This document shows, one piece after another, positions 14,268-33,730 of a DNA stretch of 64,000 bases. The stretch covers positions 82,501 to 146,500 of the forward strand of contig NZ_QFRJ01000002.1 of NCBI RefSeq assembly GCF_003143775.1, given 5' to 3'. The DNA comes from Brumimicrobium oceani (lineage in GTDB: Bacteria > Bacteroidota > Bacteroidia > Flavobacteriales_D > Crocinitomicaceae). The notes beneath the pieces were generated by a model. The model was given only the letters and a program-made list of their open reading frames with translations. It was not told the origin of the DNA and did no database searches. The first letter of the stretch is position 1, and each line of letters begins with the position of its first letter. Both the position numbers and the translations under genes were made by a program.

Positions 14268-14460
14268 GTTCTACACCAGAGATTCCCAAAACAACAAAGA
14301 TGATATTTTCAAAACTACAGACAGCGTTCCTTTTTCTACAACGGAGATTTCTCACAAAGGCTATTTGAGATTTGTGAAAGTGGTTGAGGATGGGAAATTG
14401 TGTGCGGATTTGGGTGCGAAGGTTTTGGAGGGGTTTGTGGGGATAGACGAGTTAATTTGA
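14268..14460 (+). pseudogene. mcrC 3'-end remnant, copy B
   Basis: The frame reads DIFKTTDSVPFSTTEISHKG and onward to a stop at 14458-14460, nearly identical to the end of the intact McrC, but there is no upstream McrC body. Homology starts about CTACACCAGAGATT (14271) and runs past the stop into TGAGCTGAATTGATTTTAA (to about 14524), which matches the DNA behind the intact gene. It is a non-functional stub marking the far edge of the inserted module at 13298-14267. Confidence 0.85.
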
Positions 14461-14994
14461 CGTATTTCGTGCTGTAATCCAAGTCTACGTTACTGAGCTG
14501 AATTGATTTTAACTGGCCTTATATTTACTTGGTAAAACAAGCCACGAAACCTAGGCAATTCTAAGTATAGTGTGCCTTAACTTTGGCTAAATTCAAGAAT
14601 CTTATTTTGACAGCATGGAAATGTGTAAATAACGCGAGATATTAAGAGAATCTCGCAATATTATCAAAAGAAGCAAATTGCGCTTCAATTAAGAAAACTT
14701 TAATTGTTGCTTTGATAAAGGAATATTTAGCTGAATTCCCAAAACAACAAAAAAGATGATTTCAAAACTAAAGACACCGTTCCTTTTTCTACAACTTAAA
14801 TTTCCCGCAAAAGCTATTTGAGATTTGTGAAGGTGGTTGAGGATGGGGAATTGTGTGCGGATTTGGGTGAGAAGGTTTTGGAGGTGTTTGTGGGTGATTA
14901 AAACATTAAGCTTGGTTAAATCTTGCATTTAACCTCTTTTTAGACTTGGAATCGGTTTTGGCGCGTACGCTCGAAAACCATATCACCCTAACTA
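14461..14994. other. Intergenic stretch holding mcrC copy C, otherwise no gene seen
   Basis: Apart from the copy C stub (14734-14900) I see no credible gene. CGCGAGAT (14633) and ATCTCGC form a short inverted repeat near 14633-14657. The DNA is AT-rich and appears to be module debris between mcrC stubs and the WYL gene. Confidence 0.6.
14734..14900 (+). pseudogene. mcrC 3'-end remnant, copy C
   Basis: A third, more decayed copy of the mcrC end. It shares ATTCCCAAAACAACAAA and CCTTTTTCTACAAC with copy B where the intact gene differs, and carries a stop inside (ACTTAA) and a small deletion. It cannot encode anything useful. The B-C similarity shows that the stubs derive from another mcrC allele than the resident one. 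Confidence 0.75.
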
Positions 14995-15900
14995 TCAACT
15001 GGTATACATCTTCCGCATCCGCTCCACCATTCCTTTCATATCTTCAACCAGCCAATCAGGTTCCACAACCCTTAGTCTATCCATGTGCATAAAAAGCAAC
15101 TGACTAAATTCATAATTGGGCTTTAAGAAATATTCAACCATGGTTTCTCCATCTTTTTCTTCAAGAATTTCCTGTGAATGATGCAAGGGCAATGACTTTA
15201 AATAAGGGATTTGAGTTGATTTTACAGCAATTACAATTTTAGTGAGTTCGCTTACAGAATAAGTTAATCCAACTGTTTCTCTAAAACGGTCTTTTAAATT
15301 CAAGTCTTTTTTGGCTTCGAAAGTTTTGGTCAGCAATTCAAATGAAGAAATTCGATCAATTCCAAAAGTGCGCATTTCATTGATTCCTGACACCTCTCCT
15401 ACCACATACCAACGTCCTTTGAACTCTTTGAGTAGATAAGGTTTAACCCGATACTTTCTCGTTTTACCCGATTGGTAACTTTCATGGTTAAAGCGGATGT
15501 ATTGCTGATTCCGAATGGCTTGAAGTAGCTCCTGCAGATATTCAATTCCAGAAATATTTCCTTCGTGTTCAAAATCAATATAATTCAAAGTTTCTTTGCT
15601 TTCATGGAGACTTTCTTGAAAAACATGCGCTGTTTCTACCAACTCCAACAAACGCAAAAAACTATCTATCGGTAAACTTTTTTCTTTGTTGATAAAATAC
15701 CCTCGTTTACTTTGATTGTACTCAATTTCGACATCAAATTCATTCCGAATCGCCTCAAAATCTCTTTCTATAGTTCGTTTGGAAGCTTTTAAACCTATGC
15801 GTTCAATATAATCCATGATTGAATCCATGGAAGGATATTGTCCTGACTCGAGTTGATCGATGATGCGTTTGTAACGGCGGATGATGGCTTGTGCTGACAT
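14995..15900 (-). CDS. WYL-domain transcriptional regulator
   Basis: A 301-residue regulator. The N-terminus (about 1-60) is a helix-turn-helix: the segment SMDSIMDYIERIGLKASKRT fits the winged HTH of this family. The WYL domain follows (about 130-215), with YRVKPYLLKEFKGRWYVVGE carrying the conserved W-Y and the invariant-type arginine FGIDRISSFE. A WCX-like C-terminal part closes it. WYL regulators are frequent controllers of phage-defence islands and sense nucleic acid or nucleotide ligands. The start lies 11 bases from the upstream membrane-protein gene, so it is probably read from the satD transcript. The first 161 bases of the gene recur as a stub at 17141-17301. Confidence 0.92.
   Translation of the reverse strand: MSAQAIIRRYKRIIDQLESGQYPSMDSIMDYIERIGLKASKRTIERDFEAIRNEFDVEIEYNQSKRGYFINKEKSLPIDSFLRLLELVETAHVFQESLHESKETLNYIDFEHEGNISGIEYLQELLQAIRNQQYIRFNHESYQSGKTRKYRVKPYLLKEFKGRWYVVGEVSGINEMRTFGIDRISSFELLTKTFEAKKDLNLKDRFRETVGLTYSVSELTKIVIAVKSTQIPYLKSLPLHHSQEILEEKDGETMVEYFLKPNYEFSQLLFMHMDRLRVVEPDWLVEDMKGMVERMRKMYTS
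15740..15900 (-). repeat. WYL-gene 5'-end repeat, copy 1 (within the intact gene)
   Basis: The 161 bases ending at the WYL start codon match 17141-17301 without gaps, at a constant offset of 1401 bases and with six mismatches counted by eye. Homology stops exactly at the start codon. Confidence 0.9.
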
Positions 15901-15911
15901 GGAATAAGGTG

Positions 15912-16286
15912 TTATTTGGTAAGAAAAGCAAACACGTAAAAATATAAGATAGAAATTGCAATTGAACTGAAATTACCAACTAAAAAATAATCGTTTTCTA
16001 TCTTTTGAGCGTTCTCCTCTTTACTCTCCATGAATCTAGTACCCAATTTTATTGCACCAAAAACGACTAGTATTGTTGGGATTACTAAAATTAACCCTAT
16101 AGCCATTATGAATCTTTCTAAAACTCCTTTAAAAACCGATAAATTCATTCGTAAAACTCTCTTTGAATCCTTATTACTTGTTTCATTCTTGTCCATAAAC
16201 TTTTTCTTTAAGTATCTGAACCAAGTGAAATTAAACAACAGCTCTCCTAATAAAAAAATGACGATAAATAATAATAAGTTATACAT
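15912..16286 (-). CDS. Small membrane protein, satD partner, unknown function
   Basis: A 124-residue protein with three hydrophobic segments: MYNLLLFIVIFLLGELLF at the start, FIMAIGLILVIPTILVVFGA in the middle, and a last one near the C-terminus. Charged linkers separate them. I do not recognise the family. I chose ATG at 16286, which overlaps the satD stop by 8 bases; the longer reading would need a TTG at 16340 and overlap satD by 62 bases. The overlap implies translational coupling with satD. Membrane proteins commonly follow satD in this phylum, so the two probably work together. Confidence 0.7.
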   Translation of the reverse strand: MYNLLLFIVIFLLGELLFNFTWFRYLKKKFMDKNETSNKDSKRVLRMNLSVFKGVLERFIMAIGLILVIPTILVVFGAIKLGTRFMESKEENAQKIENDYFLVGNFSSIAISILYFYVFAFLTK

Positions 16287-16917
16287 TGAGTACAGTATTA
16301 AAATTGGTAAATAGTCTTTTACACGTTGTGTATTCTTCAATATTTAAGCTTTTATATCTCCTCCACGCACTAGACACATTAAGATTTAGAGCTTCAGCTA
16401 CTTCTTGATAGCTTTTGTTTAGTAAAAACTCTTTAACAATATAGTAATCATTTATCTTCCAGCTATCAATATAGAATTGATAAATTAAAAATAAATCACT
16501 TAATATTTGTTGTGCTTTTAAATTGTTATTCAGCATTATTATAAATCTATTTTTATTAGACTTTGACTGATTAAGCTTTTCTCTCGACTCTGTAAGACCA
16601 TCACCTAACATTTCGTAGGCATTCTTTTTATTTATAGGTGTTTCAATTTCGCCATAATTGAGTACAAATCTCAACTTAAAGCCCCACTCATTTTGAATGA
16701 TTTCTTCTTCTATTTGAAAAATTATTTCTATTGCATTACCCATAGTATTAATGATGCCTTGAAACTCATCACCAAGTGTGATTGTTAGTGGAGATGTTAA
16801 TTGGTTTTTCCATTGGTTATTAATCTTGTCAACAAGCGTTTTAAAATTACTCATAAGTAACGTTGAGTCCTTTTTTCGACTTTCAACAATATCAGCCATT
16901 AAAATCGGATAGTTCAT
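16279..16917 (-). CDS. satD: SatD family protein
   Basis: A 212-residue protein matching the SatD family: it begins NYPILMADIVESRKKDS and continues with LTITLGDEFQGIINTM (about 44-59) and LRFVLNYGEIETPINKK (about 82-98). The C-terminal part SYQEVAEALNLNVSSAWRRY (about 172-191) looks like a helix-turn-helix, so the protein probably binds DNA or RNA. SatD was named from an acid-tolerance operon in streptococci; its biochemical role is not established. It heads a minus-strand unit satD - membrane protein - WYL regulator. A -7 box and two inverted repeats lie just upstream. Confidence 0.82.
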   Translation of the reverse strand: MNYPILMADIVESRKKDSTLLMSNFKTLVDKINNQWKNQLTSPLTITLGDEFQGIINTMGNAIEIIFQIEEEIIQNEWGFKLRFVLNYGEIETPINKKNAYEMLGDGLTESREKLNQSKSNKNRFIIMLNNNLKAQQILSDLFLIYQFYIDSWKINDYYIVKEFLLNKSYQEVAEALNLNVSSAWRRYKSLNIEEYTTCKRLFTNFNTVLNV

Positions 16918-16937
16918 AATAAATATTTTAAAGTAAT

Positions 16938-16945
16938 CAAATATA
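16938..16945 (-). promoter_or_regulatory. -7 box of the satD operon
   Basis: TATATTTG on the minus strand lies 20 bases before the satD ATG. A TTTG lies 23 bases further upstream, inside the inverted repeat at 16955-17000. Confidence 0.5.
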
Positions 16946-16954
16946 ACAAAATTA

Positions 16955-17000
16955 TTGCACTAATAACGCAAACATACTCAGGTTTGCGCTAAACGTGCAA
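16955..17000. promoter_or_regulatory. Inverted repeat upstream of satD
   Basis: TTGCAC...CGCAAAC and GTTTGCG...GTGCAA form an imperfect 19-base inverted repeat around an 8-base centre, immediately upstream of the satD -7 box. Position suggests an operator. Confidence 0.45.
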
Positions 17001-17012
17001 AAACAATATACC

Positions 17013-17029
17013 TTGCATTATTAATGCAA
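17013..17029. promoter_or_regulatory. Perfect palindrome upstream of satD
   Basis: TTGCATTATTAATGCAA is an 8-1-8 palindrome with the same TTGCA ends as the neighbouring inverted repeat, suggesting two sites for one regulator. Confidence 0.45.
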
Positions 17030-17140
17030 AAAAAGGTTGAGTTATAATTTGATTTTAAAATAGTATCCGCTTAGAAAGGCTAAACACAAGCTTTGTTAAA
17101 AGAAAAAGGAGTTAAGAATGTTCTCTTTTAGACTTAAAAC

Positions 17141-17301
17141 TCATTCCGAATCGCCTCAAAATCTCTTTCTATAGTTCGTTTGGAAGCTTTTAAACCAACG
17201 CGTTCAATATAATCCATGATTGATTCCATGGAAGGATATTGTCCTGACACGAGTTGATCAATGATGCGTTTGTAACAGCGGATGATGGCTTGTGCTGACA
17301 T
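17141..17301 (-). pseudogene. WYL-gene 5'-end remnant
   Basis: An almost exact second copy of the first 161 bases of the WYL gene (start codon at 17301, minus strand), with no WYL domain behind it. It sits on the far side of satD and its membrane partner, so the satD module lies between two direct copies of the WYL gene start. Confidence 0.9.
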
Positions 17302-17372
17302 TGAGTTTTTAGGCGAATATAAGGATATTGGTTTTTCTTCAACATTTCTAGCGGGAGGAGTCTTTATTTTTC

Positions 17373-17727
17373 TAGTCCTCCCCCTTACCCCCCTCCAAAG
17401 GGGGAAGTAATCACGAATATTCTCTTTTTAACAAAATGACTTTCATAAACTTTTTTTAAGAAGCTTTACACTTGTTCAATCAAAAACCTACTTGGCATCG
17501 TAGCCCACTTTGGAGGGGAATACAGGGGGAGGAATTTCACTACAATTACTCTTAATTCACATTTATTTAAAAGTATAAAACCACCCTCCGACACCCTCTG
17601 TCGGTATCCTCCCTGACCTTTGTTTTAAATCAAAAAGAAAACGAAGATGAACAACAATTTAATGGAGTTAAAAGAAGAATTTAATGAGAAAATAAATCGC
17701 TTAGAAAAGAATAGAATTTAATTAAAA
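17373..17727 (+). repeat. AAA-protease 5'-region repeat, copy 1
   Basis: About 355 bases identical to 19349-19703 except for about seven mismatches counted by eye, no gaps, constant offset 1976. The unit starts with CCTCCCCCTTA, includes a 25-base imperfect inverted repeat (17376-17400 paired with about 17508-17532), the hairpin CCGACA/TGTCGG, the leader, and the first ~27 codons of the AAA-M41 gene. Confidence 0.95.
17647..17721 (+). pseudogene. AAA-M41 gene 5'-end remnant
   Basis: The frame opens MNNNLMELKEEFNEKINRLE exactly as the intact gene at 19623 but stops at TAA after 24 residues. It is the dead end of the copy-1 repeat, directly abutting the nucleotidyltransferase gene. Confidence 0.88.
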
Positions 17728-17731
17728 AACC

Positions 17732-18424
17732 TCAACGTTTGCTACAAATTTCTTTAAGTGTGTTCATAATTTTAGTAAACCGATAATCTTGATTTTCATG
17801 AAATAAATTCCCAAGAATGGCTTCTTGTTGATTGCGATTTTCTATTATTTTATTAAAACAGTGAATGAGATAATTTTTTACTTTGTTCTCGCTTGATAAT
17901 ATTTGATTTTTAAGTGTCGATGTATGATTCAGAATATACACGATATCCTCAAAATCATGACTTGTTCTAGGGTCTTCTCCACCACGATTTTCAAAAGCTG
18001 TAAATTTTGTTGCTAAAAAGTAAGGAAGTGACAAACATCTAACAGTAATATCATCAATTTCAACTTCAATTAAATCTTTAAATCCAGACTCAAACCATTG
18101 ATTTGCTGGCGCCCATCCTACTTCTTTTGTGGACATAACATCTACTTTTATGTCTTCGAATCTGAAACGACAAACAACCTTGTCCTCATGTGATTGATAA
18201 AATCCTTTTTGTTCTAAGCGCTTTCTTATTCTTTCCAACTCACCAAAACTTGTGATTTCCAAACTAATATCTATATCTTTTGTTGGTCGAACATCATCAG
18301 CTGATTTATCATCAATATACAAACTCACCACTGCGCCTCCAACGAATACAGCATCATTATTAAGCTCTCCTAACGCATGGGCGATTTTTTTAGTGGCAGT
18401 TCTATTAATTAAGGTGTTCTTCAT
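17732..18424 (-). CDS. Nucleotidyltransferase of a toxin-antitoxin-like pair
   Basis: A 230-residue protein with the DNA polymerase beta-like nucleotidyltransferase signature: VGGAVVSLY (28-36) and PTKDIDIS with Asp50 and Asp52, and a third carboxylate in DIKVDVM. This is the pattern of AbiEii/MNT-type enzymes, which block translation by adding nucleotides to tRNA or modify a partner protein; the target here cannot be told. It overlaps the preceding HTH gene by 4 bases (ATGA), so the pair is co-translated. The stop lies immediately against the truncated copy of the AAA-protease start, marking a module edge. Confidence 0.8.
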   Translation of the reverse strand: MKNTLINRTATKKIAHALGELNNDAVFVGGAVVSLYIDDKSADDVRPTKDIDISLEITSFGELERIRKRLEQKGFYQSHEDKVVCRFRFEDIKVDVMSTKEVGWAPANQWFESGFKDLIEVEIDDITVRCLSLPYFLATKFTAFENRGGEDPRTSHDFEDIVYILNHTSTLKNQILSSENKVKNYLIHCFNKIIENRNQQEAILGNLFHENQDYRFTKIMNTLKEICSKR

Positions 18425-18933
18425 AATAATCGTTTTTTCAATTCCTCTTTAGCCATATTAACTTCGCGTGCTTTACCTACTCTTAATGTATCACACAAAG
18501 CCATAAACTCATAAAATAATGGATCTTTCAAACAAGCTTCGGGAACTTTTGGGTGAAGTGGCTCTATAGCCTGCCCTCTTATTGTCCCCCCCCCATAAGG
18601 CCATACGAAAGACTCATCACTCATAATTTCCTTTTTTAATGGCGATGCTGAGTGTGCGGTTGGAATTCCTCTAAGAATAGACCCAGGCTTCTGCGGATAA
18701 ACATATTTTAAACCATGTACTAAGAATTCTAATATAGACATTCTCATTAAAGTCTTTTTGTTCTGGGTTATTAATCCAGCAAAAGCTGAGCGATTCAAGC
18801 TCTCACTCACTTCACTAGCGCTAATCCCTAATTCATAGGATAAATCCTTCATCAACCAAGGTTTATTTTCTTTAGATGCAATTTTTAAAAGAATCACTAT
18901 ATCATGTGGACGCATTCCATTGTGCTTTTTCAT
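18421..18933 (-). CDS. HTH partner of the nucleotidyltransferase
   Basis: A 170-residue protein with a winged-helix N-terminus: MKDLSYELGISASEVSESLN (about 28-47) is the recognition-helix region. The C-terminal part is rich in Pro and Gly and ends in a charged helix. Being upstream of and overlapping the nucleotidyltransferase, it fits an antitoxin and autoregulator, but no residue proves this. Its promoter overlaps the inverted-repeat block at 18965-18988, a plausible self-binding site. It is not the AbiEi type as far as I can see. Confidence 0.72.
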   Translation of the reverse strand: MKKHNGMRPHDIVILLKIASKENKPWLMKDLSYELGISASEVSESLNRSAFAGLITQNKKTLMRMSILEFLVHGLKYVYPQKPGSILRGIPTAHSASPLKKEIMSDESFVWPYGGGTIRGQAIEPLHPKVPEACLKDPLFYEFMALCDTLRVGKAREVNMAKEELKKRLL

Positions 18934-18949
18934 GAAATCAAGTTTTATA

Positions 18950-18979
18950 CAAATATAATAATTAATTCGCGATTCGCAA
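18950..18979 (-). promoter_or_regulatory. Promoter of the HTH-nucleotidyltransferase pair
   Basis: On the minus strand TATATTTG (18950-18957) is preceded by TTG (18977-18979) with a 19-base spacer. The -33 TTG falls inside the palindrome ATTCGCG...CGCGAAT (18965-18988), as expected for a repressor-blocked promoter. Confidence 0.6.
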
Positions 18980-19342
18980 TTCGCGAATCACTAATGTCCG
19001 ATTAAAAAGGCTTTACCGCAAAAACATAAGTTTCGCTATATCTCCTATGTCTTTTTCATTTTTTTCTTGATAAAAAAACGAAACAAAAAAATCAAAGGAA
19101 TTCCAAGGCGAATGCTTCGCACCATGAGATTTTCTAAAGCTCCATGCTATATTTCTTTTTCAAAGAAATGCAATTCCACTTGAAAACTCATTTTCGCTGT
19201 GGAATCCCAAACGCCACGAACATACTTTTTCTCAAATCTAAGCCCTTAAAATCGCAAAACAAGCCATAGTACAGAATAGACAAAGACTAAAGAATAATCA
19301 TAAAATTTATATCGGACGCCAGTGATTCGCGAATTGCAAATC
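18971..19342. repeat. 372-bp element with 32-base terminal inverted repeats
   Basis: The 32 bases at 18971-19002 recur inverted at 19311-19342 with about five mismatches; the shared core is AGTGATTCGCGAATTGC. The interior codes for nothing visible and includes long A and T runs. Either a small non-autonomous mobile element whose edge supplies the HTH promoter, or two copies of one operator. The whole gap 18934-19348 holds no gene. Confidence 0.65.
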
Positions 19343-19348
19343 AAACTG

Positions 19349-19703
19349 TAGTCCTCCCCCTTATCCCCCTCCAAAGGGGGAAGTAATCACGAATATTCTC
19401 TTTTTAACAAAATGACTTTCATAAACTTTTTTTAAGAAGCTTTACACTTGTTCAATCAGAAAGCTACTTGGCATCGTAGCCCACTTTGGAGGGGAATACA
19501 GGGGGAGGAATTTCACTACAATTACTCTTAATTCACATTTATTTAAAAGTATAAAACCACCCTCCGACACCCTCTGTCGGTATCCTCCCTGACCTTTGTT
19601 TTAAATCAAAAAGAAAACGAAGATGAACAACAATTTAATGGAGTTAAAAGAAGAATTTAATGAGAAAATTAATCGCTTAGAAAAGATTAGAATTCAATTG
19701 AAA
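19349..19703 (+). repeat. AAA-protease 5'-region repeat, copy 2 (with the intact gene)
   Basis: The partner of 17373-17727. It carries the leader and the start of the intact AAA-M41 gene. Together the two copies bracket the HTH-nucleotidyltransferase module and the 372-bp element. Confidence 0.95.
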
Positions 19704-21719
19704 ACCGAGTTCACAGGAATAGACAATGCTATTGATGAAGTCGTTGACAACATCCGCTCATGGTATACTTTGGCAGAAATACAGACCCAACCCAATGTGG
19801 TTAATTTATGGGGACTTACTGGCGTGGGAAAAACTTCTTTGCTTTTAAGAATCGCTGAGTTATTAGAGATAAAAGACAAAACATTTCGGATTGATTTTGG
19901 TGCGAAATATGGACCGCATTCTTTTAATCAATCGGTGCAACAAATTGCTGCTGTTTTAAATGACGAGCCTTTGATAATTATTTTGGATGAATTTCAGCAT
20001 GCACGAACCATAGAAAAGAATTTATCAGGTAAAAAAGAAGTGGAAAATGGCGCTCATCGATTGGTGTGGGACTTGCTGGATTCAGGGAAAATTATTGAAA
20101 ATTCGTGGAAACAAATTGTAACCGAAATTCTAAAGCACATCAGAAGTCTAAAAATGTTGATTTCTAAAGGAATGCTTATCGAAAATGGGATTGTTGTCGA
20201 AGAGAAAAGCTTGTTTTTGGAAGAAATGAAAACAGAAATGTTAATCGACACGGAACCCGAAGAATACCTGGCTATTCCACAGAGTTTACATTACGAATTG
20301 GTGAAATATGTGCCGCAACGCTATAATCTTGACATGGTGGAAGAATTAGTATTGCATTTAAAAACATTGAATGGTAAAGAAACCCTTCATTTTTTGGAGG
20401 AAGCCTTACTCATTGCGCGTCAACCTGTGGAAAGAAAATTCAGTAAATCCCTCATTTTTGTAGTTGGAAACTTGGACGAAGCTTATAAAATCAACAATAA
20501 CCTAAATACAGACATTTCTGCCGATGAATTTTATGAAGTCAGTAAAAAAATAACAGTTCCCGACATAAAATCTGCCTTGCAGGAGCGTTTTCGTGATGAA
20601 CAAATTGCGCGACTCGGAAATAACCACATTATTTATCCTGCCTTAAACAAAAAAGCCTACCGAAAATTAATTACCATGAAGTTGGATGCGTATTTCAAGA
20701 TGTTAGAAAAACACTATGCCATTTCTTGGCGTTATGACAACTCTCTAATCAATAAAATTTACGATGAAGGCGTTTATCCCACTCAAGGCGCACGACCTGT
20801 TCTTACCACAATTTATCAACTCATTAAATCGCAAACTGCTCTAATTTTTCAAGCGGTATTGCAAGAAGAAAAGGCTATTCACGAAATCTCATTATCCGAA
20901 AAGGACAACAAACTGATCTGTACCTTTCTTTCCCAAAGCAATCAAGTGAATACTTTAGTTATTCCATTGCGTTCAAAACTAGGTGAATTAAGAAAACCAA
21001 AAAACAATGAGAACCAGGCAATAACAGCAGTACATGAAGCCGGTCACGCAGTAGTGATTGCTCATTTATTGAACGAAGCACCAAAAATCATCACCGCAAC
21101 AGCCACAGATGGAAAAGAAGGCTTTGTGTTTTCACGTTCCAATGAAGATTTTACTTCAAAAAAGAGCTTATTGAACAAAGTTGCTGTAGCGCTCGCTGGA
21201 ATAATGGCAGAAAAGTACATTTTCGGAGCAGAAAACATCACGATGGGCGCAAGTTCGGATATTCAAAAAGCGTATAGCTTAATTGACAACGCCTTTAAAA
21301 ATGCAGGATTGGGCGAAAAACTTTACCATTATGCAAGTAATAAAACCGAAAATTCAACAAGCTTTCATCAAATTGAAGAAGTAGAAAAAGAGATTTCAAA
21401 TGTAATTGATGCGGCACAAATTCTAGCCGAAGAAACGCTAAAAAAAGAACGCAGAATGCTACTCGAATTGGCCCAAATACTTCAAAACAAATCAAAAGTT
21501 GAACAACAAGAGTTTATTGAATTGTACCATAAACACGGCGCGAAGAAGATCGATTTTAAGAACGAGTCAACACATTACCGTGATGCCATTGTAAAGGCTT
21601 TAGAAGAATTAGAAAGCATGAAAGAAATAGCAACACACAAAGCCATTGTTCTTAATAAAAGTCAAAAGAAGGACAATGTAATAACTGATACTTTAAAATC
21701 GTGGAGAGATGAAAAGTAA
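19623..21719 (+). CDS. Clp-like AAA+ ATPase fused to an M41 (FtsH-type) zinc protease
   Basis: A 698-residue two-part enzyme. The N-terminal part (about 1-440) is an AAA+ domain with Walker A GLTGVGKT (64-71), Walker B IIILDEFQ (Asp122-Glu123), SLIFVVGNLDEAY as sensor 1, RFRDEQIARLG with the arginine finger, and QGARP (Arg391) as sensor 2, all in the Clp/HSP100 style. The C-terminal part (about 462-640) is an M41 peptidase: zinc motif HEAGH (471-475) and the third ligand Asp546 in GASSDIQKAY. FtsH normally joins M41 to its own AAA type and is membrane-bound; here no membrane segment exists. So this is a soluble ATP-driven protease with an unusual pairing. It overlaps the next gene by 11 bases and heads a four-gene operon in the defence island. 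Confidence 0.88.
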   Translation: MNNNLMELKEEFNEKINRLEKIRIQLKTEFTGIDNAIDEVVDNIRSWYTLAEIQTQPNVVNLWGLTGVGKTSLLLRIAELLEIKDKTFRIDFGAKYGPHSFNQSVQQIAAVLNDEPLIIILDEFQHARTIEKNLSGKKEVENGAHRLVWDLLDSGKIIENSWKQIVTEILKHIRSLKMLISKGMLIENGIVVEEKSLFLEEMKTEMLIDTEPEEYLAIPQSLHYELVKYVPQRYNLDMVEELVLHLKTLNGKETLHFLEEALLIARQPVERKFSKSLIFVVGNLDEAYKINNNLNTDISADEFYEVSKKITVPDIKSALQERFRDEQIARLGNNHIIYPALNKKAYRKLITMKLDAYFKMLEKHYAISWRYDNSLINKIYDEGVYPTQGARPVLTTIYQLIKSQTALIFQAVLQEEKAIHEISLSEKDNKLICTFLSQSNQVNTLVIPLRSKLGELRKPKNNENQAITAVHEAGHAVVIAHLLNEAPKIITATATDGKEGFVFSRSNEDFTSKKSLLNKVAVALAGIMAEKYIFGAENITMGASSDIQKAYSLIDNAFKNAGLGEKLYHYASNKTENSTSFHQIEEVEKEISNVIDAAQILAEETLKKERRMLLELAQILQNKSKVEQQEFIELYHKHGAKKIDFKNESTHYRDAIVKALEELESMKEIATHKAIVLNKSQKKDNVITDTLKSWRDEK

Positions 21720-22620
21720 GGAAGAACAAAATGAGATCGCTGATAAAAGAGATTCTAGCTTGAAGCATCAAGTGAAAAAGGTAATAGAAAAAGCTGAGAA
21801 TCCCTTACTCCTTTCATTAAATACAGGTTTTTCAAACATCGACGATCAACTCAATGGATTAAAATTAGGAGAACTTTACATTTTAGGCGGAGCTGCTGCA
21901 ATGGGACAGCAAACATTCATCGGTCAGCTTGCTATGGAAGTCGCAGAACATTCAGGTGTTTTGTATTTAACACAATTTGAATCTCCATCAAAACTAAGCA
22001 AACGTTTACTTTCCATTGCTGGAAATATCCAATCGCACCAACTTGAGCAGCTGCCTTGGAATAAAGAAACAACTGATCAAGTTTCAGAAATACTGAACTC
22101 TTTTAAAAGCAAAAAGCTCTTCATTGAAAAAGAAAAGCAGTTTGAACAAAATGAATTCATGAAACTTATCGAAGATTATGTCACTCAAAATGGAATCAAA
22201 TTGATAATCATAAATAATGAAAATAATTTATTTAGAAATTTAAAAGTCAAGCTGACAACAGATGAAAAGTATAATTTTATTCTAAAGTTAAAACTACTTC
22301 TACGTCGATTGGATTGTTGTGGGATGATTCTTAAGAAAATAAAATCGGCTAAACGTACCCAGGGAAACCCTTTTCAATTACCACAGATTCCAGACATCCA
22401 ACTCGAATATAACTTAGCAGATTTGGCTGATCATATTTGGTTTATGCACAGGTTAGAATATTATGGAATTGATAGAGACGGAGCAAATAACTTGACTAAA
22501 AATCGTATTGACTTGTATGTGATGGATGACGATGGTGGGTATTTGGAAAATCTGTATTTTAGTTTTAATGAGAGGTTTACGGGGATGGAAGTGGTTGAGA
22601 GGAGTGAAATAAATTATTAA
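21709..22620 (+). CDS. DnaB/KaiC-like RecA-fold protein with degenerate Walker A
   Basis: A 303-residue protein similar to the C-terminal RecA-fold domain of DnaB helicase. It keeps the pattern NTGFSNIDDQLNGLKLGELY (about 38-57) before the P-loop, and strand-loop features further on. But the P-loop reads GGAAAMGQQTF, where DnaB has a GKT/GKS: the nucleotide-gripping lysine is a glutamine. The Walker B region reads LIIINNENNLF in place of the usual acidic LIIIDYLQLM. It is therefore probably unable to hydrolyse ATP and may act as adaptor or bait for DnaB rings. It overlaps the protease gene by 11 bases. The DnaB resemblance is clear, the function is inferred. Confidence 0.78.
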   Translation: MKSKEEQNEIADKRDSSLKHQVKKVIEKAENPLLLSLNTGFSNIDDQLNGLKLGELYILGGAAAMGQQTFIGQLAMEVAEHSGVLYLTQFESPSKLSKRLLSIAGNIQSHQLEQLPWNKETTDQVSEILNSFKSKKLFIEKEKQFEQNEFMKLIEDYVTQNGIKLIIINNENNLFRNLKVKLTTDEKYNFILKLKLLLRRLDCCGMILKKIKSAKRTQGNPFQLPQIPDIQLEYNLADLADHIWFMHRLEYYGIDRDGANNLTKNRIDLYVMDDDGGYLENLYFSFNERFTGMEVVERSEINY

Positions 22621-22640
22621 ATTAGAAAACAAATAGAATT

Positions 22641-23342
22641 ATGAAAAGAATAGAAATGTTCAATTTAGCATATGATGATAAATTGATGGAGATTAATCAT
22701 TATAAAAAGCATCCACAAATGATGCCATACGTTGGTGAAGATTATGACACTTACAAAATCTTAATTATTTCAGAAAGTCATTATGTACCTGATAATTTTA
22801 AGGGAGATATTTCAAACTGGTATGATAACCCAACTTTAGAATTAGTAAATTCAATGAAAGGAAATACCAATACAAGAGGAGTAATTAATAATTTCTTTGA
22901 TAAGAATAGAAAAGGACATCGCCTTTTTCACAATATCAATTCAGCGCTCAAAAATGGTAACAAAAATATAGACCTGAAAAGTGTGGCTTGGTATAACTTT
23001 TATCAAAAACCTGCAAAGCATAAAAAAGAGTTTAAAAAAGACAATTCATTAGATAAGAAAATAGCTATTGAAGTTTTTGAAGAAAACATAAAAATATTGG
23101 ATCCTAAACTTATTTTCTTTGTGTCTAAAAATGCTTTTGGTAGTTTACAAAACGGAAAAGGTGATTATAAAGATAGGAAGTGGTGCGAAATTTTGAAAGG
23201 ACATAAATTCAAAAATCATCAAGTTCCAATTCAAGTTGCAGTTCATCCCAATTGCTCATGGTGGAATAGAAAACATGGTCAACGAAAGGAGACTGGAAAA
23301 CAACAATTCGAAAGAAAAATTAGAAACCATTTCTCAATGTAA
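22641..23342 (+). CDS. Uracil-DNA-glycosylase-superfamily-like protein
   Basis: A 233-residue protein. YKILIISESHYVP (about 38-50) resembles the first motif of UDG-like proteins and VAVHPNCSWWNRKHGQR (about 201-217) the HP-containing second motif; between lies SVAWYNFYQKPAKHKK. This arrangement is known in uncharacterised UDG-superfamily proteins near defence genes. If active it could remove a base from invader DNA, or bind abnormal DNA. The catalytic water-activating residue cannot be assigned by eye. It follows the DnaB-like gene by 20 bases and is read with it. Confidence 0.45.
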   Translation: MKRIEMFNLAYDDKLMEINHYKKHPQMMPYVGEDYDTYKILIISESHYVPDNFKGDISNWYDNPTLELVNSMKGNTNTRGVINNFFDKNRKGHRLFHNINSALKNGNKNIDLKSVAWYNFYQKPAKHKKEFKKDNSLDKKIAIEVFEENIKILDPKLIFFVSKNAFGSLQNGKGDYKDRKWCEILKGHKFKNHQVPIQVAVHPNCSWWNRKHGQRKETGKQQFERKIRNHFSM

Positions 23343-23348
23343 ATTAAC

Positions 23349-23900
23349 ATGAAAAATATTAACCTACCAAAATCATCATCCCAATTTCAATCTGAAGGGG
23401 AACTCTTTATTATTACTTCCTTCCTAAAACAGTTTTATCCTTTACAAAAGGAAGACAACCTAAAAGAGACCTTCACTTTAGAAAACGCTTCAAACATTAA
23501 GATGCAACTTGATTTGTATTTAAAAGATGCTAAAGTTATAGGTGAGATTTACGTAACAGAATTGCCTTTTAATTCAGGACGAAAGCGAAAGTTCCAGAGT
23601 GATATTCTCAAAATGATCACATTTGAAAAGATAAATAAGGAACATTATAAAAAGTTTTACTTTCTCACAGCAGATGAAGAAAAACTCAAGACGCTTCACG
23701 GAGATGTTAGCGATGGCAGTTTTTATAAACATACCCGAGAGAAGTCTTTAATTGGAAAAAATACTTGGTTAAATCTTACACTGGAATCTTTTGGAATCGA
23801 ATTGTATTACTATTGTATTGGTGAGCTTTTCTTTGAGAAATTAAAGAAAACAAGAAAGTTGCAGAAAGAGGGAATGAGAGAAAAAGTTATAAATAAATAA
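23349..23900 (+). CDS. Last gene of the AAA-M41 operon, unknown function
   Basis: A 183-residue protein I cannot place in a family. It is basic and mixed alpha/beta. The stretch QLDLYLKDAKVIGEIYV (about 52-68) has the D-(x)n-ExY spacing of a PD-(D/E)XK-like fold, but the expected lysine is a tyrosine, so a nuclease call would be a guess. It begins six bases after the UDG-like gene and ends the operon. No terminator is obvious after its stop. Confidence 0.6.
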   Translation: MKNINLPKSSSQFQSEGELFIITSFLKQFYPLQKEDNLKETFTLENASNIKMQLDLYLKDAKVIGEIYVTELPFNSGRKRKFQSDILKMITFEKINKEHYKKFYFLTADEEKLKTLHGDVSDGSFYKHTREKSLIGKNTWLNLTLESFGIELYYYCIGELFFEKLKKTRKLQKEGMREKVINK

Positions 23901-24219: not shown

Positions 24220-25767
24220 TTACTTTTTTATTTCTTTTACCAATTTATTCCAAGATTTTTTAGTCTGCTTCTTTATTTTATTTTTGGTCATAGTTTTAGC
24301 CGCTTTATTAGAATAAGACAAAAAATTTCCCCAATCATAACTATCTGATTTTTCAAAGCCTTTAACTGATTCATTCCATATCCATTTTCTTTTTCTATCA
24401 GCACCTTTGTATGAGAACTTTTTTAATATTCTACCTTTAAAAATCTGTCCTTTATTTTTACCTTTTTTCGCATAATGCTTAGAACGTTTTACAGTTTTTT
24501 TCATTTTTCTATAGAAAGCTGATATGCTAGCTGAACGAACAAGAGTCGTTTCACCATCAAACTCAAAACCTAAATAAATAAGATTTTTACTCTCATTTAT
24601 TCCATTCTTAAATTCTTGCCCACAGTTAAGTATTCCATTTTTTCTTCTAAAATGAAATATTTGAGTTTTAGCCTCCTGAATTTCTAATTTTACTTTTTTT
24701 ATTTCAGAAATTACTAGCTTTATAATTGCATCCTTTTTGTCCAAAGGACAAACAACAACCATATCATCTGAATATCTCCTATAAGTTCCTGTTTCTTTAA
24801 TAAAATTATTAATTGTTCTATCAAAATTTAAAAGGTAAGCATTTGCTAACACAGAGCTAATTGGAGAACCTTGAGGAATACCAAATTTTTTAGGTAAACC
24901 TTTATTATCACCTTTCTGTATAACCTTGGTGTTTCTAACTAATTTATGCTTCTTTTTATAAAACTCTTTTTTTGTACAAAATGCAACAGCATCTTGATTT
25001 TTCAGAAATTTAATTTTAGAAACTTTACCTCTCTTTTTGGGTAATAACTTACCGTTAGAATCTCTTTTTTGAATAAAAATTTTGTTCTGAAATTCTTTAA
25101 ATAAATCAACAATGTCTACATAAGCAAACCTTGTAATGTTTTTAAATACATTAAAATGATCTGGTGGTAATTTCTGTAGTTTATTCTCTTCTGCTTCCAA
25201 TAATTGTAACCAAACATCTCGTAGAATTTTATGGTCTAACTCATCAAAAAAACCTTTAATATCTAAAGCTATTGCAACAAATTTTTTATCCGGATAACTC
25301 CTTATATAATTAAACGTATCATTAGCAAAGTCAATATTACACTTGTTTGGACCTTCTGGAATTTCTGGTTTTATTGGAATAGAACGATAGGCTAAAACTA
25401 CATCATCTAAACCATATTCTTTAATCTTATCCTCATAACTATTAGACAACGTTTCAGCATAATAACCATAAATTAAAGAATCTAGGTGAGACGCATAATA
25501 CAGTTCTCTATCTTTTACTGATGATTTTCTTAGCGCTTTTTTTTCTTTAGAATCTATTATTACTTTTCCTGTTTCTTCAGAGTATTGTTTTCTAAATTTT
25601 CTTTTTTTAGAAGTTTTATGAATAAAGGGTAAGAAAGCATGTTTTTGTATTTCATCCGGATTAGTTACATATTTCTCTATCCAAAGATATCTATCTTTAG
25701 ATTTTAACGGAAAACCAATATGTGGATACCGTTTTAACTTAAACCAATCTTTCTTTTTCTTTTCCAT
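24220..25767 (-). CDS. Stand-alone reverse transcriptase (defence-type, group unassigned)
   Basis: A 515-residue reverse transcriptase. Motif A is VAIALDIKGFF with catalytic Asp169; motif B is GIPQGSPISSVLANAYLL; motif C is YSDD at 332-335 (Ser where most have Ala) followed by MVVVCP. The N-terminus WFKLKRYPHIGFPL, the long lysine-rich insert between motifs A and B, and the basic C-terminus without maturase or HNH domains argue against a group II intron. It resembles the unknown-group/DRT-type antiviral reverse transcriptases. I chose ATG 25767; the longer reading needs TTG 25794. It is flanked by the DUF262 relic and type I restriction genes. A structured leader lies upstream. The subgroup cannot be settled by eye. 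Confidence 0.85.
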   Translation of the reverse strand: MEKKKKDWFKLKRYPHIGFPLKSKDRYLWIEKYVTNPDEIQKHAFLPFIHKTSKKRKFRKQYSEETGKVIIDSKEKKALRKSSVKDRELYYASHLDSLIYGYYAETLSNSYEDKIKEYGLDDVVLAYRSIPIKPEIPEGPNKCNIDFANDTFNYIRSYPDKKFVAIALDIKGFFDELDHKILRDVWLQLLEAEENKLQKLPPDHFNVFKNITRFAYVDIVDLFKEFQNKIFIQKRDSNGKLLPKKRGKVSKIKFLKNQDAVAFCTKKEFYKKKHKLVRNTKVIQKGDNKGLPKKFGIPQGSPISSVLANAYLLNFDRTINNFIKETGTYRRYSDDMVVVCPLDKKDAIIKLVISEIKKVKLEIQEAKTQIFHFRRKNGILNCGQEFKNGINESKNLIYLGFEFDGETTLVRSASISAFYRKMKKTVKRSKHYAKKGKNKGQIFKGRILKKFSYKGADRKRKWIWNESVKGFEKSDSYDWGNFLSYSNKAAKTMTKNKIKKQTKKSWNKLVKEIKK

Positions 25768-25871
25768 TTTATAAGAAGTGAGCAGAGAAGCCAACTACGA
25801 AGCATTGCTTTTAGAGTTTATAAAACTCCTGAAAAATGCATGCTCTTTCGATTGTAAACCTAAGTCTACAA

Positions 25872-27840: not shown

Positions 27841-29271
27841 TTATTTTAAAGCTTCTGTTAATACCTTAATAATTTCGTCTTGTATGGTAGAAATATTTTG
27901 TTCGGTAGTTCTAAATTTTTCTAACAACACTTCTGGACTTGCCAAGGTATCAATCTCTTGATGTGGGTTTTTAATATCTAAGTTATATCCTCTTTTTTTA
28001 ATCTCCTCAATAGAAACTTTCCAAGCTTGTGTGTTTTCTTCTCTGTTGTCCCACCATGCTTTTTCTGTATCAAACTCTTTAATATGAATCGGTTTTCCTT
28101 TGTTGTAACTTTTTACGCCTTCGGGATATGGATGCTCGTAATACCAAATCTCTTTAGTAGGCGTTCCTTTTTCAAAAAACAAGAGATTGGTTTTAATACC
28201 TGTGTATGGGTTAAAAACCCCATTTGGCAAACGCACAATGGTATGCAGGTTGCATTTTTCCAGTAATTCTTCTTTTAGACGTGTTTTCATTCCTTCTCCA
28301 AACAAAGTACCATCTGGTAAAACAATAGCACAGCGACCTTTGTCTTTTAATAACTTAATAATTAAGGCAAGGAATAAATCGGCAGTTTCTTTAGTTCTAA
28401 ACTTTTTAGGGAAATTGGTTTCGGTACCATCTTCTTCTACACCTCCAAAAGGTGGATTAGAAAGTATGATGTCTAGTTTGTCTTTTGCTCCCCAATCTGC
28501 ATAAGGTTTACTGAGTAGATTATCTCTACGCACTACAGGCAAATCAAAGCCATTTAGCATTAAATTTGTGGTACATAATAAATGTGGCAATGGTTTTTTC
28601 TCTACCCCACGAATGGAGTTTTGCAATACATCTCTATCTTTTGAGTTGTTTACTTGATTGCGAACTGCGTCAATCGTACACGTTAAAAATCCACCAGTTC
28701 CACAAGCAGGATCTAGTACGCTTTCCCCTAATTGCGGATTAATCATATCTACCATAAACTGCGTTACGGCTCTTGGTGTGTAATATTCACCTGAAGAACC
28801 TGCAGACTGTAAGTCTTTTAAAATGGTTTCGTAAATATCATTAAACACATGGCGTTCGCTCGTACTGTTAAAATCTATTTCATTAATAACATTAATTACT
28901 TGACGGAAGAGTGTTCCGTTTTTCATAAAGTTATAGGTATCATCAAATACAGAACGAATAATTTTAGCTTGCGGACTTATGGTAATATCCAAGTCTTTTA
29001 AAGCAGGAAATAACTCGTTTTCAATAAATTCCATTAAAGCATCACCTGTTAAGCCTTCATCATCAGCTGCCCAGTTTTGCCATTTTAAGTGTTCAGGAAT
29101 TGGGCTTACGTAATTGTCTATCGTAATTTCCCATTCCTCTTCTTTGTCGGCAAATATTTTCATAAACAGCATCCAGACCATTTGAGAGATACGTTGTGCA
29201 TCTCCATCTACTCCTGTGTCTTTACGCATAATATCGCGTATGCCCTTTATGTTTGTTGTTATATTACTCAT
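27841..29271 (-). CDS. hsdM: Type I DNA adenine methyltransferase HsdM
   Basis: A 476-residue N6-adenine methyltransferase that modifies the host DNA and, with HsdR and HsdS, forms the restriction complex. It starts with the HsdM_N helical domain (about 5-130), then the catalytic domain with the SAM motif LDPACGTGGFL (about 185-195) and the catalytic motif NPPFGG (about 268-273). Upstream of the SAM motif, SSGEYYTPRAVTQFMVDMI is the usual approach sequence. It overlaps the AlbA_2 gene by 4 bases (ATGA) and abuts hsdS. Confidence 0.96.
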   Translation of the reverse strand: MSNITTNIKGIRDIMRKDTGVDGDAQRISQMVWMLFMKIFADKEEEWEITIDNYVSPIPEHLKWQNWAADDEGLTGDALMEFIENELFPALKDLDITISPQAKIIRSVFDDTYNFMKNGTLFRQVINVINEIDFNSTSERHVFNDIYETILKDLQSAGSSGEYYTPRAVTQFMVDMINPQLGESVLDPACGTGGFLTCTIDAVRNQVNNSKDRDVLQNSIRGVEKKPLPHLLCTTNLMLNGFDLPVVRRDNLLSKPYADWGAKDKLDIILSNPPFGGVEEDGTETNFPKKFRTKETADLFLALIIKLLKDKGRCAIVLPDGTLFGEGMKTRLKEELLEKCNLHTIVRLPNGVFNPYTGIKTNLLFFEKGTPTKEIWYYEHPYPEGVKSYNKGKPIHIKEFDTEKAWWDNREENTQAWKVSIEEIKKRGYNLDIKNPHQEIDTLASPEVLLEKFRTTEQNISTIQDEIIKVLTEALK

Positions 29272-30782
29272 TCTGCTTTTTTATCCTTTAATAATTGAAG
29301 AAATACAATTCCTCGTTCTGTTATTTTATATTGTTGTTTAGAACTTTTTGGCTTATCTGGTATTGTTCTTTCAATTAGATTATCTTTTAGTAATTTGTTT
29401 GAAACAATATTTAATTGACTTGATATAGATTTCTGCCCTAATTCTCTTGAAATTTCTTTTTTGGAAGAAGCTTTTTCTTTCACTATTAACAGTATATGAG
29501 TATACATAGACTCGTGCTTCATCTCGTACTCTAACTCGTGCCTTAACTCTAGCTGTAACTCTAGCTGTAACTCTAGCTGTAACTCTAGCTGTGACTCTAG
29601 CTGTGACTCTAGCTGTTGATTGTAGTTTGTCTTTACAAACGAAACTCTAAAAGCAACACCTGGTTCTTTCCATGCTAATTTAATTTCTGGATATTCATTT
29701 AAATCATCTGAAATTAATTGCAATCCGTTCCCCCATTGCTCAATAATACCTAAACGTTTAAAAACGGGTGCAAGCACTTTATTTCTCACATCAGATTGCC
29801 CTGCATCCATCTCGTTAAAATCTACCGTAGGTAATAATTTTCCTGGGCTTGTAATTTCCACTTTATCATCAAAAATGGCAATTTTAATATCTTTTCCTGT
29901 AAGAGAATAATCTCTATGAATTATGGCATTTCTTATCACTTCTCGAATCGCAATCATAGGATATTCCCATCGGTCATTTCTATAAACACCTTTATAATCC
30001 TCTGTACCTTCAGAAACATGACGCATTACAAATTGATAGGCTTGTTCTGCTTGTACAGCAATACTATCATCAATGGTTTTTTGATCAATAAAATTGCCAG
30101 GAACAATCCCTTTAAACCGTGCGCATTCAATTTTAGCGTTTGGGAAAATTTGATTTCGAATTTTATCATCAGATAATAAAACCAGTGCATTGGTAGGTAA
30201 AAACTGACCTTGTTCTTGTTTTATTAGTTCTAACTTTTTTAGAATCTCAACAGTTAATTTCTCACCCGTTTTTTCTTTAAAAAAGTCACTAAAATCATCT
30301 ATAATTAAGTCTTTATACTTTTTATTAAAAACCAGTTCAGAGTCAAAAGAAATATTTTGACCTTGTCTTTCTAATTCTCGGATAATTTCATTTGTAGCCA
30401 ATCTGTTAGATGAACCAACTCTAATAAATGTTCCTTTATCTATTCCTTTTGAGGAAATAAAATAAGGAGGTTTACTGCCTTTATGAATATAAACTCTTAT
30501 GATTTTTTTGTTGTTTTCTTCAACAAAAGTAATTTCTGGCAAAATGGTTGGTGAGCATTGGTCATTAACAATATTACTAATTTGGTTTTCAATACTGTCT
30601 AATTGGTCAACGGTTAAACCTGTTATCTCTCTAGGATTATCTTTTACACCAATAAATAATTCACCACCCGCGTCATTAGCAAAAGAAACAATGGTCTTTG
30701 CTAACTCGGATTTAGTAGGCAACACTTGTTTAAATTCAAGTCGCCTACCTTCAGGTAGTTTTATTTTTCTTAGCAAATTCAA
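29268..30782 (-). CDS. AlbA_2 (Schlafen-type) / GHKL ATP-binding regulator in the type I operon
   Basis: A 504-residue protein in three parts. Residues about 1-130 form an AlbA_2 DNA-binding domain: GRRLEFKQVLP then IVSFANDAGGELFIGVKD. Residues about 270-400 match the HATPase_c_4 region, with EVIRNAIIHRDYS and EQWGNGLQLI. After a repetitive LELQ linker (about 410-440) comes a winged-helix C-terminus with KKEISRELGQKS. Such proteins are recurrent accessory genes in type I operons, probably as regulators. It starts with TTG directly after the hsdR stop (no ATG fits) and overlaps hsdM by 4 bases. The linker is encoded by a 12-base tandem repeat. Confidence 0.88.
   Translation of the reverse strand: MNLLRKIKLPEGRRLEFKQVLPTKSELAKTIVSFANDAGGELFIGVKDNPREITGLTVDQLDSIENQISNIVNDQCSPTILPEITFVEENNKKIIRVYIHKGSKPPYFISSKGIDKGTFIRVGSSNRLATNEIIRELERQGQNISFDSELVFNKKYKDLIIDDFSDFFKEKTGEKLTVEILKKLELIKQEQGQFLPTNALVLLSDDKIRNQIFPNAKIECARFKGIVPGNFIDQKTIDDSIAVQAEQAYQFVMRHVSEGTEDYKGVYRNDRWEYPMIAIREVIRNAIIHRDYSLTGKDIKIAIFDDKVEITSPGKLLPTVDFNEMDAGQSDVRNKVLAPVFKRLGIIEQWGNGLQLISDDLNEYPEIKLAWKEPGVAFRVSFVKTNYNQQLESQLESQLELQLELQLELQLELRHELEYEMKHESMYTHILLIVKEKASSKKEISRELGQKSISSQLNIVSNKLLKDNLIERTIPDKPKSSKQQYKITERGIVFLQLLKDKKAE
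29545..29616 (-). repeat. 12-base tandem repeat, six units, in the AlbA_2 gene linker
   Basis: Six consecutive copies of AACTCTAGCTGT or GACTCTAGCTGT (+ strand) encode repeated Gln-Leu-Glu-Leu/Ser. Because the unit is four codons, copy-number change lengthens or shortens the linker without breaking the frame. Confidence 0.95.
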
Positions 30783-33728: not shown

Positions 33729-33730
33729 TT
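33709..33730 (-). terminator. Terminator of mnmE, usable in both directions
   Basis: AAAAACTGA and TCAGTTTTT form a 9-bp stem with a TTCA loop; A and T runs flank both sides. It overlaps the last base pairs of the mnmE stop. Confidence 0.75.

Follow-up and report, generated by a model that had tools for sequence, protein, structure and literature searches.

The window analysed here is a stretch of 64,000 nucleotides from Brumimicrobium oceani, lying inside a 590 kb contig (NZ_QFRJ01000002.1) of a 3.85 Mb genome. The locus under study comprises four packed open reading frames (ORFs), all on the forward strand (19623-23900) and here called genes 1 to 4, where genes 1 and 2 overlap by 11 nt and the later gaps are of 20 and 6 nt. 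This packing had been described in an original prediction made from the letters alone, as had the setting in a defence island, and both were confirmed, the surroundings holding a PDC-M21 pair, a DRT2 gene and a type I restriction-modification system. The core of the locus is gene 1, an ATP-dependent protease of unusual architecture, together with a WYL-domain regulator encoded 5' of it; judged by sequence, the whole looks like an undescribed anti-virus module. The features are as follows, in window positions:

14995-15900, reverse strand: WYL-domain transcriptional regulator (helix-turn-helix, WYL and WCX; Pfam WYL, WCX)
19349-19622, forward strand: intergenic and promoter region 5' of gene 1, aligning with the region between the WYL gene and gene 1 in Brumimicrobium aurantiacum
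19623-21719, forward strand: gene 1, soluble Clp/Hsp100-type AAA+ unfoldase with M41 zinc protease, 698 aa
21709-22620, forward strand: gene 2, protein like the DnaB C-terminal domain with the Walker A lysine replaced (AMGQQT), 303 aa
22641-23342, forward strand: gene 3, protein of probable uracil-DNA glycosylase (UDG) superfamily fold, 'GESHY' family, 233 aa, variable cargo
23349-23900, forward strand: gene 4, small protein, 183 aa, variable cargo

Scans for consensus promoters and terminators gave nothing above chance.

Gene 1 is formed by a Clp-type motor and an M41 protease. Both were identified above the Pfam cut-offs (ClpB_D2-small at residues 341-406, E 6.3e-6, 26.6 bits against a cut-off of 21.9; Peptidase_M41 at 462-633, E 5.7e-21), the remaining AAA models matching weakly, and a profile of 7 homologues searched against the PDB retrieved FtsH for residues 467-638 and Hsp104, ClpC and ClpB for the motor. 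The motor presents Walker A (64-71), Walker B (D122, E123) and, after a long variable stretch, sensor 1 (N283), the arginine finger R330 and a GARP sensor 2 with R391; the protease presents HEAGH at 471-475 (H471, E472, H475) and the zinc aspartate D546. K70, D122/E123, N283, R330, R391, H471/E472/H475 and D546 are invariant in 44/44 aligned homologues (27 cellular and 17 viral rows), which amount to fewer independent cases because four viral pairs are more than 99% identical. T71 is replaced by S in some rows and by K in one, and R322 is variable, being R in 19 of the 27 cellular rows. Since the catalytic residues are kept throughout, the machine appears to be under selection as an active protease. 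The chain begins at the AAA module and has no N-terminal membrane helices; its highest hydropathy over 19 residues is 1.27, so that no membrane helix is expected. The Clp-type ring joined to M41, the HEAGH and GARP motifs and the absent membrane helices had all been claimed beforehand and were borne out.

A normal FtsH was considered for gene 1 and rejected, the equivalog model TIGR01241 reaching 67.1 bits against a cut-off of 600 and matching the protease part alone, as expected from the original claim that gene 1 differs from the usual membrane-bound enzyme. FtsH shares with gene 1 the M41 domain, with HExxH and an aspartate ligand, and the union of motor and protease in a single chain, whereas gene 1 lacks the membrane anchor and its motor is of the Clp/ClpB-D2 type instead of classic AAA. 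The Clp/Hsp100 proteins (ClpB, ClpC, Hsp104) share the D2-type AAA+, the D2-small domain and the GARP sensor 2, but gene 1 has one AAA module and carries a zinc protease of its own, where they use a separate ClpP or have no protease. A literature search, with subscription journals mostly outside it, found no description of an M41 protease joined to a soluble Clp-type unfoldase, nor of a WYL gene arranged with an AAA-M41 protein.

The WYL regulator, overlooked in the original prediction, accompanies gene 1 at other loci more constantly than any other gene. In the window it matched Pfam WYL (E 1.3e-15, 57.6 bits, cut-off 21.8) and WCX (E 2.8e-7, 31.2 bits, cut-off 23.9). Gene 1 was collected from 28 cellular loci (those other than the window bear L numbers; the contigs L022 and L023 belong to a single genome and were counted once), and a WYL gene was identified within 8 kb in 22 of them (E <= 4e-39), using a linkage profile built leave-one-out with the WYL of each locus omitted. 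The exceptions are L005 and L046, both short contigs, and L049, L051, L056 and L066; among 17 viral contigs there was none. The regulator is mostly the direct neighbour of gene 1, standing 1.9 kb off in L019 and 3.65 kb off in the window, where two insertions lie between. With one or a few WYL genes per genome, chance cannot account for such linkage (chance rates of 2%, assumed, and 0.3%, from a rough guess of 230 WYL genes).

One alternative reads gene 1 as mainly regulatory, a protease-repressor switch like CapP/CapH, which on infection would degrade the WYL regulator, or the dead DnaB-like protein serving as antitoxin or inhibitor, and free the cargo as sole attacker of the phage. The WYL gene agrees with it, being the most constant partner and usually adjoining gene 1 while the cargo varies; on the other side, a single cut needs less than an ATP-driven unfoldase, CapP-type peptidases being small and ATP-independent. 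CapH+CapP and CapW/BrxR are described as controlling many immune operons (PMC13373217), but WYL repressors are presented there as switching through binding of single-stranded DNA, with no proteolysis. This alternative is rated as somewhat unlikely.

Gene 2 matched Pfam DnaB_C (E 1.1e-22, 81.1 bits against a cut-off of 27), and its Walker A, GGAAAMGQQT, has lost the lysine, the same as in B. aurantiacum, which bears out the claim of a dead DnaB-like protein; with the full DnaB helicase model it reached 64 bits, under the cut-off of 385. Its homologues are 94-95% identical in B. aurantiacum and 31% in L018. The lysine is kept in L018 (AMGKLT) and in L019 and L045, whose proteins look closer to working ATPases, and the DnaB-like protein of L054 is very divergent. 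The proposal that the DnaB-like protein might hold off or target the protease is pure inference. A separate locus, L136 (5986-9858), lacks gene 1 but combines a WYL gene with a DnaB-like gene whose Walker A is altered and with what looks, by eye, like a reverse transcriptase gene; it is possibly a sister module.

These data bear on a second alternative, where gene 1 would itself be the effector, the DnaB-like decoy feeding it phage helicase-loading or replication proteins, and genes 3 and 4 would be an independent defence pair that settled downstream. The overlapping genes 1 and 2 stay together at 94% while genes 3 and 4 differ, and a DnaB-like gene abuts or overlaps gene 1 in the window, L017 and L018 and lies upstream of it in L054 (a weak match, E 0.003). 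However, most loci are without a DnaB-like gene within three genes (5/115 neighbours), the DnaB-like proteins of L045 and L019 keep a Walker A lysine, and L136 has the DnaB-like and WYL genes without the protease. An effector role of that kind is rated as quite unlikely.

The limits of the conserved unit are given by the nearest named relative at the locus, Brumimicrobium aurantiacum N62, whose gene 1 is 96% identical. The DNA of both organisms is 94% identical over 19543-22601, up to 19 bases before the gene 2 stop, and then shows no similarity. Downstream, B. aurantiacum has a UDG-like gene with 26% amino-acid identity to gene 3 (E 3e-4) and an unrelated 156-aa ORF of no clear family. A conserved four-gene operon, as claimed originally, was not borne out and is rejected as the unit: the gene 3 family occurs unlinked, no relative of gene 4 was found, both are replaced or unmatched in related genomes and similarity ends at gene 2. 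The conserved unit consists of the WYL gene and gene 1, to which a DnaB-like gene is often added; everything else is exchangeable. This arrangement is more than chance because homologues of gene 1 are found repeatedly at full length and gene 2 accompanies it. The observations of the original prediction were confirmed, and its interpretation was supported only partly.

Gene 3 was modelled with AlphaFold2 from four sequences (predicted TM score, pTM, 0.74; mean predicted local distance difference test, pLDDT, 65.0). In a Foldseek search of the PDB the top 38 matches were all UDGs (UdgX, family 4, TDG, UNG), with probabilities of 0.91-1.00, the highest to UdgX and family 4 UDG, a best E of 5.3e-4 and TM of about 0.3-0.5; KaiC and FlaH ranked after them (probability <=0.6). 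The UDG fold of gene 3 is likely but not strong, since two matches alone reached E <= 0.001; the UDG-like protein claimed beforehand is borne out by this predicted fold, with Pfam UDG below cut-off. The 'GESHY' family, named after a motif, has eight residues invariant in 12/12 members, among them E45, N119, Q122 and W208, which may correspond to the catalytic motifs of UDGs.

Of 59 relatives searched, the other 58 gave no match to gene 3 at E <= 1e-4. Its wider family was identified in 8/198 genomes, 6 of them without gene 1 (two of these six, L096 and L099, with a WYL gene close by), and in two viral contigs, the copy in L084 standing beside genes that look, by eye, like phage packaging genes. 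Because the family occurs without gene 1 and in viral contigs, its UDG-like gene counts as a mobile component. A further UDG-like gene (L140, 7691-8395, E 2.8e-5) has a WYL regulator two genes away, in a locus that lacks gene 1. Gene 4 gave nothing significant in family searches and no relative in the genomes searched, and its single-sequence AlphaFold2 model was unusable (pLDDT 33.7); by eye, it is possibly a PD-(D/E)XK nuclease.

Cargo exchange was also identified at other loci. In 12/28 loci (the window, L017, L018, L019, L021, L022, L045, L048, L049, L052, L054 and L065) a gene no more than three genes from gene 1 matched DnaB_C, UDG, GIY-YIG, GmrSD, PDDEXK_4 or DUF2779 above the Pfam cut-off. 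The neighbours are distributed as follows:

DnaB-like: window, L017, L018, L045
UDG-like and GIY-YIG: L021, L022
three UDG-like genes and DUF2779: L048
GmrSD, three bases 3' of gene 1: L065
PD-(D/E)XK: L045, L054, L019
DUF2779: L049, L052, L019

UDG was counted for the window, L017, L048, L021 and L022 alone, the last by 51% identity to L021 and without a Pfam match of its own. A UDG identity was not accepted for neighbours in L057, L058, L059, L061 and L047, hhalign giving a hint for L057 alone (31% probability, E 5e-4); this comparison is insensitive because UDGs supported by Pfam scored just 0.1-14%. In phmmer against the PDB no UDG was retrieved for the L058 or L059 neighbours. Two loci, L020 and L050, comprise the WYL gene and gene 1 with no recognisable cargo. 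The 115 neighbours scanned (of 136; the remainder were small or edge ORFs, chosen by eye) matched 202 Pfam families, the commonest being DnaB_C with 5 and then DUF2779, PDDEXK_4, AAA_25 and UDG with 4 each. As control, 55 of 65 neighbours (the remainder chosen in the same manner) were scanned from 14 WYL loci of genomes without gene 1, giving PDDEXK_4 2 and DnaB_C 1 among the 25 of 114 families listed. Neighbours longer than 900 aa had been dropped before counting, 2 in the first set and 6 in the control. The contrast between both sets is suggestive, not proven. The literature on DUF2779 and IetAS gave nothing useful.

The distribution of gene 1 is patchy. Matches were identified in 14/99 relatives, 8 including the motor and six restricted to the M41 part; with the motor, gene 1 was present in 19/395 genomes of the class, in 5/395 of the phylum sample (two of them new) and in 2/9 other genomes of the genus sample. 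The order of genome G448 yielded no new locus (2/46, both known already), and one scan of genome contigs had B. aurantiacum as its sole match. Plasmids and named phages matched at the M41 level alone (24 and 3 records), none over more than 80% of the query. The Clp-M41 protease was identified in 17 IMG/VR contigs (L067-L083), several longer than 300 kb and none with a WYL gene; their viral status is that given by IMG/VR, and PHROGs matched 4/10 neighbours scanned, a DNA helicase and a DNA ligase among them.

In the tree the window falls in a 13-row set of cellular loci (support 91/58), whereas the WYL-less L049, L051 and L056 join the viral L067 and L082 (99/98) and the WYL-less L066 joins other viral rows (100/100). 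The tree omits L022, L023, L078, L080 and L083, and its deep forks are weak, with several long branches. Since the WYL-less loci group with viral rows and apart from the set of the window, two uses of the protease are suggested, one cellular and linked to WYL, the other without WYL and shared with viruses. Gene 1 could also be a general soluble quality-control protease found by chance in defence islands, its neighbours being passengers. This would suit the absence of WYL and cargo from L051, L056 and L066, with their housekeeping-like surroundings, and of WYL from the 17 viral contigs. Against it stand the patchy presence (19/395; 2/9) and the WYL linkage, and the grouping of L049, L051, L056 and L066 with viral rows, which may reflect another use of the machine. 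A quality-control role is rated as very unlikely. In general, gene 1 was found neither solely as unlinked single genes nor as a normal FtsH, yet some copies stand without WYL or cargo.

The preferred reading, rated at somewhat less than even confidence, is a modular anti-phage locus with a WYL switch, an AAA+ protease core, a coupled dead DnaB-like protein and swappable DNA-attacking cargo. Directly computed are the domain make-up, the conservation of catalytic residues, the WYL linkage, the recurrence of DnaB-like genes and the cargo exchange at the gene 2 3' end. The target is probably phage DNA, perhaps modified; defence activity, trigger, substrate, catalysis by gene 3 and a nuclease role of gene 4 are inferred. 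Until infection or DNA damage sets in, the WYL regulator would keep the locus at a low level. The dead DnaB-like protein, translationally coupled to gene 1, would be an adaptor or decoy sensing phage replication and delivering substrates to the protease, which would degrade either a replication protein of the phage or whatever inhibits the cargo. A modified base would be recognised or excised by the UDG-fold protein, and a nuclease would finish the DNA.

By analogy, these steps may have precedents in the CapW/BrxR repressors, in Brig1 and Brig3 as base readers or removers of the UDG superfamily, and in CMoRE. Brig1 and Brig3 are described as anti-phage DNA glycosylases acting alone; gene 3 resembles them in its superfamily fold and defence-island setting (compared by fold and description) but follows a WYL and AAA-protease core. 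The GIY-YIG protein CMoRE is described as cleaving DNA with 5-hydroxymethylcytosine (5hmC) or its glucosylated form (5ghmC). Type IV restriction systems of the GmrSD and CMoRE kind correspond, at the family level, to the cargo of L065 (GmrSD) and of L021 and L022 (GIY-YIG), whereas the known systems are not known to have an AAA-M41 partner. CapW/BrxR share with the locus a WYL regulator, and CapH+CapP the pairing of protease and repressor, in both cases alongside immune genes that vary; the window regulator presents this feature of CapW/BrxR, a helix-turn-helix WYL protein beside immune genes. The protease here is instead a large ATP-driven M41 machine, and because it is of another kind, CapH+CapP would be the closest working analogy (it 'works like') without membership. 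The parts and the logic are known, the chimeric protease is unusual and the combination is unreported in the literature searched. A bolder version, considered unlikely, is a new immune system in which a WYL-switched Clp-M41 protease, guided by a dead mimic of a replicative helicase, licenses exchangeable DNA-reading effectors (UDG-fold, GIY-YIG, GmrSD, PD-(D/E)XK) against phages with modified DNA, the viral copies possibly destroying host defences.

Several results weigh against the modular anti-phage reading. None of genes 1 to 4 matched a family of PADLOC-DB 2.0.0 (2023) at E <= 1, although this absence of any matching model agrees with the earlier claim that no described system has these parts. 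Gene 3 was under the Pfam UDG cut-off (E 0.027, 15.0 bits, cut-off 24.3) and its fold match is moderate, with TM 0.40-0.47 among UdgX rows. The same WYL profile matches 181/395 genomes, WYL also standing without gene 1, and L051, L056 and L066 have the surroundings mentioned above. There is no strong cargo match in 16/28 loci, PDDEXK_4 is as common in the control (2/55), and the cargo enrichment is weak: 15/115, in neighbours that include related pairs, against at least 1/55 (p 0.02), or against an upper bound of 4/55 that allows for control families beyond the 25 of 114 listed (p 0.31). The neighbours may also be passengers in defence islands.

The island of the window presents further elements. 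The DRT2-type reverse transcriptase (24220-25794, reverse strand, 524 aa) scored 371.9 against the NCBIfam Drt2 cut-off of 390, the model covering 416 positions with inserts seemingly present. In a Schlafen/AlbA-like protein (29268-30782, reverse strand) the linker contains a series of ESQL/ELQL repeats, and at 33729-35099 (reverse strand) PADLOC matched LeoA/LeoBC weakly (E about 1e-7). Two gene pairs are inserted between the WYL gene and gene 1, SatD-like/membrane protein (15901-17304) and PDC-M21A/B (17373-19648), each flanked by a long direct repeat of the start of the adjoining gene (178 nt at 94%; 300 nt at 99%):

17127-17304, reverse strand: duplicated WYL 5' end, 94% to 15726-15903, a product of the SatD-like pair's insertion
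17373-17730, forward strand: duplicated gene 1 promoter and first 28 codons, on the far side of the PDC-M21 pair, 300 nt at 99%

The 28-codon copy of gene 1 in the latter matches at 89% and ends at TAA. Both insertions are missing from this place in B. aurantiacum. The 3' end of a gene taken to be McrC-like is present three times (13024-13248, 14276-14442 and 14735-14900), all matching one B. aurantiacum site. This pattern of gene-end copies hints at how the island grows.

If the core is a defence controller, an ATP-driven protease would join the known switches of immune operons, and the cargo position would be a handle for finding new effectors that sense DNA modification. The architecture of gene 1 would offer an easily purified one-chain ATP-dependent protease, and the viral copies raise the question of what use a virus has for it. 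With a near-identical core and a replaced cargo in two Brumimicrobium genomes, the gene that sets the phage range is directly testable.

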